From: an uncultured bacterium
GTDB lineage: Bacteria > Elusimicrobiota > Elusimicrobia > Elusimicrobiales > Elusimicrobiaceae
DNA: 64,000 nt
Direction: 5' to 3'
Assembly: GCA_949291515.1 (NCBI GenBank)
Contig: CASEVY010000007.1
Span: 1 to 64,000 of the forward strand
Position numbers and translations under genes: made by a program. The first letter of the stretch is position 1, and every line of letters starts with the position of its first letter. Shown here piece by piece: positions 1,707-2,124 of the stretch. The notes beneath the pieces were generated by a model. The model worked only from the letters and a program-made list of their open reading frames with translations. It ran no database searches and was not told the DNA's origin.

Positions 1707-1734
1707 TTGACATTTCTTTTTTTGAGCGTATTAT
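1707..1734 (+). promoter_or_regulatory. Promoter of the structured RNA at 1741
   Basis: A perfect TTGACA at 1707-1712 is followed after 16 nt by TATTAT at 1729-1734. Transcription would start near 1741, exactly where the first base-paired helix of the RNA begins. The region is divergent from galM, so the two genes are back to back. Confidence 0.65.
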
Positions 1735-1740
1735 ATCCTT

Positions 1741-2124
1741 ACGGGCAGTGATAACAAGAGGGTTCTGAAGGAACGGAACCAGTTCTCACTCCTACATAAG
1801 GAGACTGCCCGTTTTGAAAATTTACTGTTGTTTGACCGGGTGGTGTTTTCCGGCGGGGCGGTGTTATGAGTGTAGACGCTGCCGGACGTGAGGACGCCGG
1901 ATGCGGACATAAAATCCCCTGAGCGGGTGTGCGCATGAGACGGTCGGACAGTAGGGCCGGGTGCCAAAGAAGGTGTGGTCCGTCGTTATGGGCGGCGAAC
2001 GCGAAGGTAAAGGCATCTGCGCCGAGGAGAAGGTATGGAGGATAGCTCCAGTTGTAGAAGCGGGCGTTAATCGTTTTAAAGGTAATGGATAATTACAAAG
2101 TAACGGTTAAGGCCCGCTTTTTTT
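1741..2124 (+). ncRNA. Structured non-coding RNA of unrecognised family (about 384 nt)
   Basis: No plausible protein is encoded here, but the strand has a promoter at 1707-1734 and ends in an intrinsic terminator at 2060-2124. A perfect 9-bp helix joins 1741-1749 with 1804-1812 and encloses smaller hairpins (CTCCT/AGGAG at 1790-1804 among them). Further local helices include CCGG-CGT/ACG-CCGG near 1882-1900, GACGG/CCGTC at 1939-1943 with 1980-1984, and TGGAG/CTCCA at 2036-2050. It is much richer in G and C than other intergenic DNA here. I looked for the signatures of RNase P RNA, tmRNA, SRP RNA, group I and II introns, T-boxes and common riboswitches and found none. The function is unknown. 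It is not a leader, because the next real plus-strand gene starts at 10697. Confidence 0.7.
2060..2124 (+). terminator. Long intrinsic terminator of the structured RNA
   Basis: Arms 2060-2075 and 2102-2117 pair over 16 positions with one mismatch and one G-T pair. They enclose a second small hairpin (GTAAT 82-86 with ATTAC 92-96 of the 2000s) and are followed by seven T residues. This is an unusually long, two-tier terminator. Confidence 0.85.

Follow-up and report, generated by a model that had tools for sequence, protein, structure and literature searches.

The window analysed here is a stretch of 64,000 nucleotides from an uncultured bacterium of the Elusimicrobiaceae. Between a reverse-strand gene, named aldose 1-epimerase-like on sequence grounds, and a convergent RND pump gene, it contains a segment for which a stand-alone structured RNA of no recognised family had been proposed. 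The locus raises the question of whether such an RNA gene is present, whether it belongs to a class already described, and what its product might do. The gene is delimited by the following features:

1707 to 1734, plus strand: sigma70-type promoter TTGACA-16-TATTAT (consensus scan; kept in homologues)
1741 to 2124, plus strand: structured RNA gene, whole transcript (fold z-score -6.1; homologues in 16/18 genomes of the genus)
2056 to 2124, plus strand: intrinsic terminator with T7 (fold; homologues)

The promoter lies where the original prediction had placed it and matches the consensus at 11 of 12 positions (TTGACA 1707-1712, a spacer of 16 nt, TATTAT 1729-1734); the 5' end of the RNA at 1741 is deduced from it. 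The terminator with seven T was likewise recovered in the fold: its tiered stem is long (2056-2121), and T7 occupies 2118-2124. Consensus scans for promoters and terminators by themselves give approximately chance counts, and both calls are convincing because the whole layout is conserved in relatives: TTGACA and a TA-rich -10 element occur with equal spacing in each of the 15 homologues with a covered 5' end, and a long GC-rich stem with a T run is found at the 3' end of all homologues. At the tip of the terminator (2082-2096), nearly all types share a conserved GGAUA (or GGUUAA-like) loop, which is unusual for a plain terminator. Downstream, at 2227-2254, lies a strong inverted repeat, rich in GC and flanked on either side by T/A tracts; it is likely a two-way terminator between the RNA gene and the convergent RND gene.

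The RNA was detected in 16 of the 18 genomes of the window's genus (gut and rumen Elusimicrobiaceae), at one place per genome; the two remaining genomes have completeness values of 83% and 64%. A DNA search yielded copies whose identities were 96, 95, 81 and 74%. Elsewhere in the genus it gave short hits within one 3' segment, and the loci concerned proved to be full genes with the same layout. This layout is constant despite low overall identity and a length that varies with the type: 384-390 nt for that of the window, 392-419 nt for others and 573-577 nt for one.

The plus strand of 1741-2124 has a minimum free energy of -159.3 kcal/mol, compared to -124.0 +/- 5.8 for 100 dinucleotide shuffles, none of which was as low (z -6.1); the reverse strand is less structured (z -3.8). 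The fold is composed of the following elements, all on the plus strand:

1741 to 1812, plus strand: 5' three-way-junction domain (covariation in alignment A4)
1741-1749 with 1804-1812, plus strand: helix P1, perfect, 5' strand ACGGGCAGT and 3' strand ACTGCCCGT
1758-1765 with 1776-1787, plus strand: helix P2, with a 4-nt RNUU-like bulge at 1781-1784
1789-1792 with 1800-1803, plus strand: helix P3, part of the 5' three-way junction
1829-1838 with 1941-1950 (1829 to 1950), plus strand: P4, a long-range helix enclosing the central hairpins (direct count)
1858 to 1882, plus strand: central hairpin H1, 7 bp with an 11-nt loop UAUGANUGNAG (alignment A5, 100% of cells paired)
1903 to 1934, plus strand: central hairpin H2 with an asymmetric AAAU/U internal loop (A5, 97.6-100% of cells paired)

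P1 is the perfect 9-bp helix with which the RNA had been said to begin, and further helices with covariation are P2, P3, P4, H1 and H2. In the 5' domain 94.8% of the cells are paired (80.0% when shuffled, 35-47% with partners slid), and in the central hairpins 99.1%, both percentages leaning towards structure since the sequences were aligned manually and with knowledge of that structure. Changes on both sides of a pair, in 12/22 pairs of the three-way junction and in 9/16 pairs of the central hairpins, occur across types of low sequence identity and are the stronger evidence. For P4, a direct count over 14 sequences gave 120 paired cells out of 124; with the 3' strands exchanged among sequences 62% were paired, and 0 of 2000 exchanges reached the observed value. 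Compensatory changes are thus present in three separate parts of the molecule (5' domain, central hairpins, P4), which supplies the covarying base pairs that had been named as a check. In many relatives H2 is capped by a GNRA or UACG loop. In several types the linker after the 5' domain (1812-1825) shows a UUUGAAAA-like stretch, and the segment that links the central domain to the 3' module is type-specific. Taken together, the comparison indicates an RNA gene with a structure under selection, which belongs to a family not described before. The alternative outcome, that relatives encode a conserved protein here, did not materialise, as shown by the compensatory changes and the lack of a common protein of ordinary length.

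Searching the window against Rfam at gathering score returned tRNAs only, with no match at 1741-2124, and lax thresholds gave nothing meaningful at the RNA gene; lax matches at 2195-2334 were weak, mostly driven by the neighbouring terminator at 2227-2254, and were discarded. The divergent homologues matched no family either, apart from nearby tRNAs. The expectation that no known family, in particular no RNase P RNA, tmRNA, SRP RNA or 6S RNA, would be recognised was thus borne out with covariance models. RNase P RNA (RF00010; contig C8:56859-57184, 188.8 bits) and tmRNA (RF00023; contig C7:374804-375152, 129.1 bits) are located elsewhere in the genome and their models do not match the locus. 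The Rfam models available for ROOL, GOLLD, OLE and ModT matched neither the window copy nor the homologues. A reading as a CsrA sponge was dropped on inspection, as GGA motifs are few in the other types. The open literature searched contained nothing relevant on structured RNAs in Elusimicrobia.

In the genome, which is approximately 95% complete, SRP RNA (RF00169, RF01854) and 6S RNA (RF00013) were not found, while RNase P RNA and tmRNA score normally. The RNA could accordingly be a strongly diverged SRP or 6S RNA of this lineage, and the missing matches to RF00169, RF01854 and RF00013 would fit this; however, at this completeness, and with RF00013 matching only 5 of 14 control genomes, the absence of these RNAs is weakly shown. 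Moreover, a housekeeping RNA should have homologues in sister genera, where none was recognised, and with lax thresholds, too, the SRP and 6S models matched none of six scanned homologue loci. The bacterial SRP models also found nothing in the window, and the fold is multi-domain instead of the single long rod with a central bubble typical of 6S RNA, the model of which did not match the homologues. Such an origin is hardly credible.

Two models built from hand alignments (R1, 5' domain; R2, central hairpins) were applied across the phylum. Within the genus they gave 13 (R1) and 14 (R2) strong matches, one per genome; two further copies, L119 and L132, were assigned from a weak R2 match combined with their position at the same tRNA cluster. 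In this search, which covered 341 genomes of 100 genera, no other genus of the phylum gave a convincing match, also with looser filters. Matches below approximately 25 bits outside the genus (inspected: L101, L116-L118 and L158-L162) lacked the layout of promoter, mini-ORF and terminator and lay mostly in coding-like sequence. DNA searches beyond the genus gave short chance matches only, and the RNA was not found in the tRNA-cluster neighbourhoods of sister genera. The suggestion that the RNA might be lineage-restricted therefore holds among the genomes searched, and a whole RNA family can evidently be confined to one genus.

Most homologues are located near a tRNA-Thr/Gly/Cys cluster, from which the RNA in the window is directed away; one type adjoins tRNA-Ala, upstream of a radC-like gene. 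This proximity to tRNA genes, together with the size and the multi-domain fold, is also reported for ROOL and GOLLD (PMC12286853), and the homologue records name Elusimicrobia, several of them from rumen or abomasum samples. An ornate RNA of this sort, borne by phages or other elements and forming RNA-only cages, might thus be considered. In addition to the unmatched Rfam models, however, viral contigs, phages and plasmids contained no match, and the RNA occupies one place per genome in nearly all members of the genus, among housekeeping-like neighbours, so that we regard this as very improbable. The gene downstream is inconsistent, namely the convergent RND pump gene in the window and radC-like or pilin-like genes elsewhere. 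Because there is no common downstream gene, the RNA is not the leader of one gene, and a reading as an attenuator was dropped for the same reason.

One claim of the original prediction had to be revised. The RNA was thought to have no coding capacity, but a short frame preceded by a Shine-Dalgarno sequence had been missed:

2025 to 2029, plus strand: Shine-Dalgarno sequence AGGAG, predicted unpaired in the window copy (P 0.96)
2035 to 2070, plus strand: mini-ORF of 11 codons, MEDSSSCRSGR (ATG 2035, stop TAA 2068-2070)
2036 to 2050, plus strand: hairpin UGGAG-GAUAG-CUCCA at the start of the mini-ORF (stem invariant in 14 homologues; L119 and L132 lack it)

The Shine-Dalgarno sequence, the ATG and the early stop are kept in 16/16 homologues. 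Every copy consists of AGGAG, a gap of 5, 6 or 8 nt, ATG, 8-12 codons and a stop, the latter at or within the 5' arm of the terminator. The peptides (MEDSSSCRSGR, MEDSSSCKSGR, MEESSSCRSGR, MEENSNRTSGR, MEDNSSMQAGWL, MEDNSSCR, MEDNSSCS, MEENSTSAG, MEENSSNAG, MDASSSIS and MEASSSIG) follow the pattern [ED][DEA][NS]S[SNT] after the ATG and are alike over the first 5-6 residues only, the remainder being variable in length and sequence. A longer frame common to the main types was not found. Taken by itself, the short SD-ATG pattern can arise by chance: five unrelated genomes have it, and these five matches outside the Elusimicrobia coincided with no model match. As judged from sequence, the RNA shares with dual-function RNAs a conserved translatable frame with a Shine-Dalgarno sequence inside a structured RNA.

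The first codons overlap the conserved hairpin in 14/16 copies, and peptide conservation may partly be RNA conservation. The RNA might then be purely non-coding, with AGGAG, ATG and hairpin forming a protein- or RNA-binding element or a mimic of an mRNA start that holds the 30S subunit without making a peptide. This would agree with the UGGAG/CUCCA stem being invariant in 14 copies, with the unconserved residues past position 6 and with the predicted pairing of the Shine-Dalgarno sequence in some folds (mostly paired in L007, L008, L010 and L053; P unpaired 0.10-0.24). However, the two most divergent copies, L119 and L132, have lost the hairpin, yet retain the Shine-Dalgarno sequence, the ATG, the acidic, serine-rich start and the early stop, and the variation of the SD-ATG spacing stays inside the range used by ribosomes. 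In addition, Ser5 is encoded by TCC in 14 copies but by AGT in the two without hairpin. The persistence of the frame despite the lost hairpin and the changed codon points to translation, and we consider a purely non-coding RNA rather unlikely.

Conversely, the peptide might itself be the product, with the structured 300-500 nt acting as a regulatory 5' leader (a switch or thermosensor) of a micropeptide mRNA. The Shine-Dalgarno sequence and frame conserved in all copies and the complex leader with a terminator directly after the stop would be in line with this. Nevertheless, a peptide of 8-12 residues is very short and variable past residue 6, and the peptide of a described dual-function RNA is longer (VcdP, 29 residues, PMC8672173). 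A role as a micropeptide mRNA is therefore quite doubtful. In our view, docking or sensing of the ribosome is a more probable role of the mini-ORF than the making of a peptide product, because the peptide is so short and varies after residues 5-6.

On the whole, with its own promoter and terminator, covariation and no match in Rfam, the proposal of a stand-alone structured RNA of no recognised family is upheld. The one site per genome, the strong promoter, the three-way junction, the covarying central domain, the Shine-Dalgarno sequence with its frame and the terminator can be read from the sequence; abundance, action in trans and engagement of ribosomes we infer. The RNA would be made constitutively and in quantity, its fold would serve in trans as a scaffold to which a protein or another RNA binds, and the Shine-Dalgarno sequence and mini-ORF of the 3' module would load a ribosome. 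With somewhat better than even confidence, we regard it as a stand-alone, genus-restricted, undescribed structured RNA, probably an abundant trans-acting scaffold with a ribosome-engaging 3' module. A bolder version, which we put forward only tentatively, is a new chromosomal class of ornate RNA whose 3' mini-ORF is a handle for ribosomes, so that the scaffold is held on them or senses them. To our knowledge, this mode of action has no parallel among large structured RNAs. Nearly every sequenced member of the genus has this elaborate fold combined with a conserved start site; we know of few large structured RNAs without known function, and those studied gave unexpected biology.

The systems nearest in kind are the ornate RNAs ROOL, GOLLD and OLE (PMC12286853) and ModT (PMC11706538); dual-function RNAs (e.g. 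PMC8672173) are nearest in carrying a frame. ROOL and GOLLD are large RNAs with several structured domains and an unknown function, and they often lie close to tRNA islands (PMC12286853). The Elusimicrobiaceae RNA is similarly large, multi-domain and tRNA-proximal, but it is smaller than these, chromosomal in nearly every member of the genus and has a mini-ORF before the terminator. OLE is a large, conserved, structured bacterial RNA (PMC12286853), and these properties are shared by the RNA described here, which in contrast has no Rfam match, another architecture and no neighbour genes in common with OLE. ModT, or raiA-motif RNA, stands alone, is structured and acts in trans (PMC11706538). The Elusimicrobiaceae RNA is likewise stand-alone and structured, whereas it lacks an Rfam match, is confined to a single genus and possesses a conserved Shine-Dalgarno sequence with a short 3' frame. 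ModT, in contrast, occurs in thousands of species. The dual-function small RNAs SgrS, RNAIII and VcdRP are regulatory RNAs that also contain a short frame open to translation (PMC8672173, PMC4021124), that of VcdRP encoding the 29-residue VcdP. A short frame also appears to be embedded in the Elusimicrobiaceae RNA, but compared to the longer peptides of these RNAs it comprises 8-12 codons, is placed at the 3' end and is combined with a far more elaborate, covarying fold.
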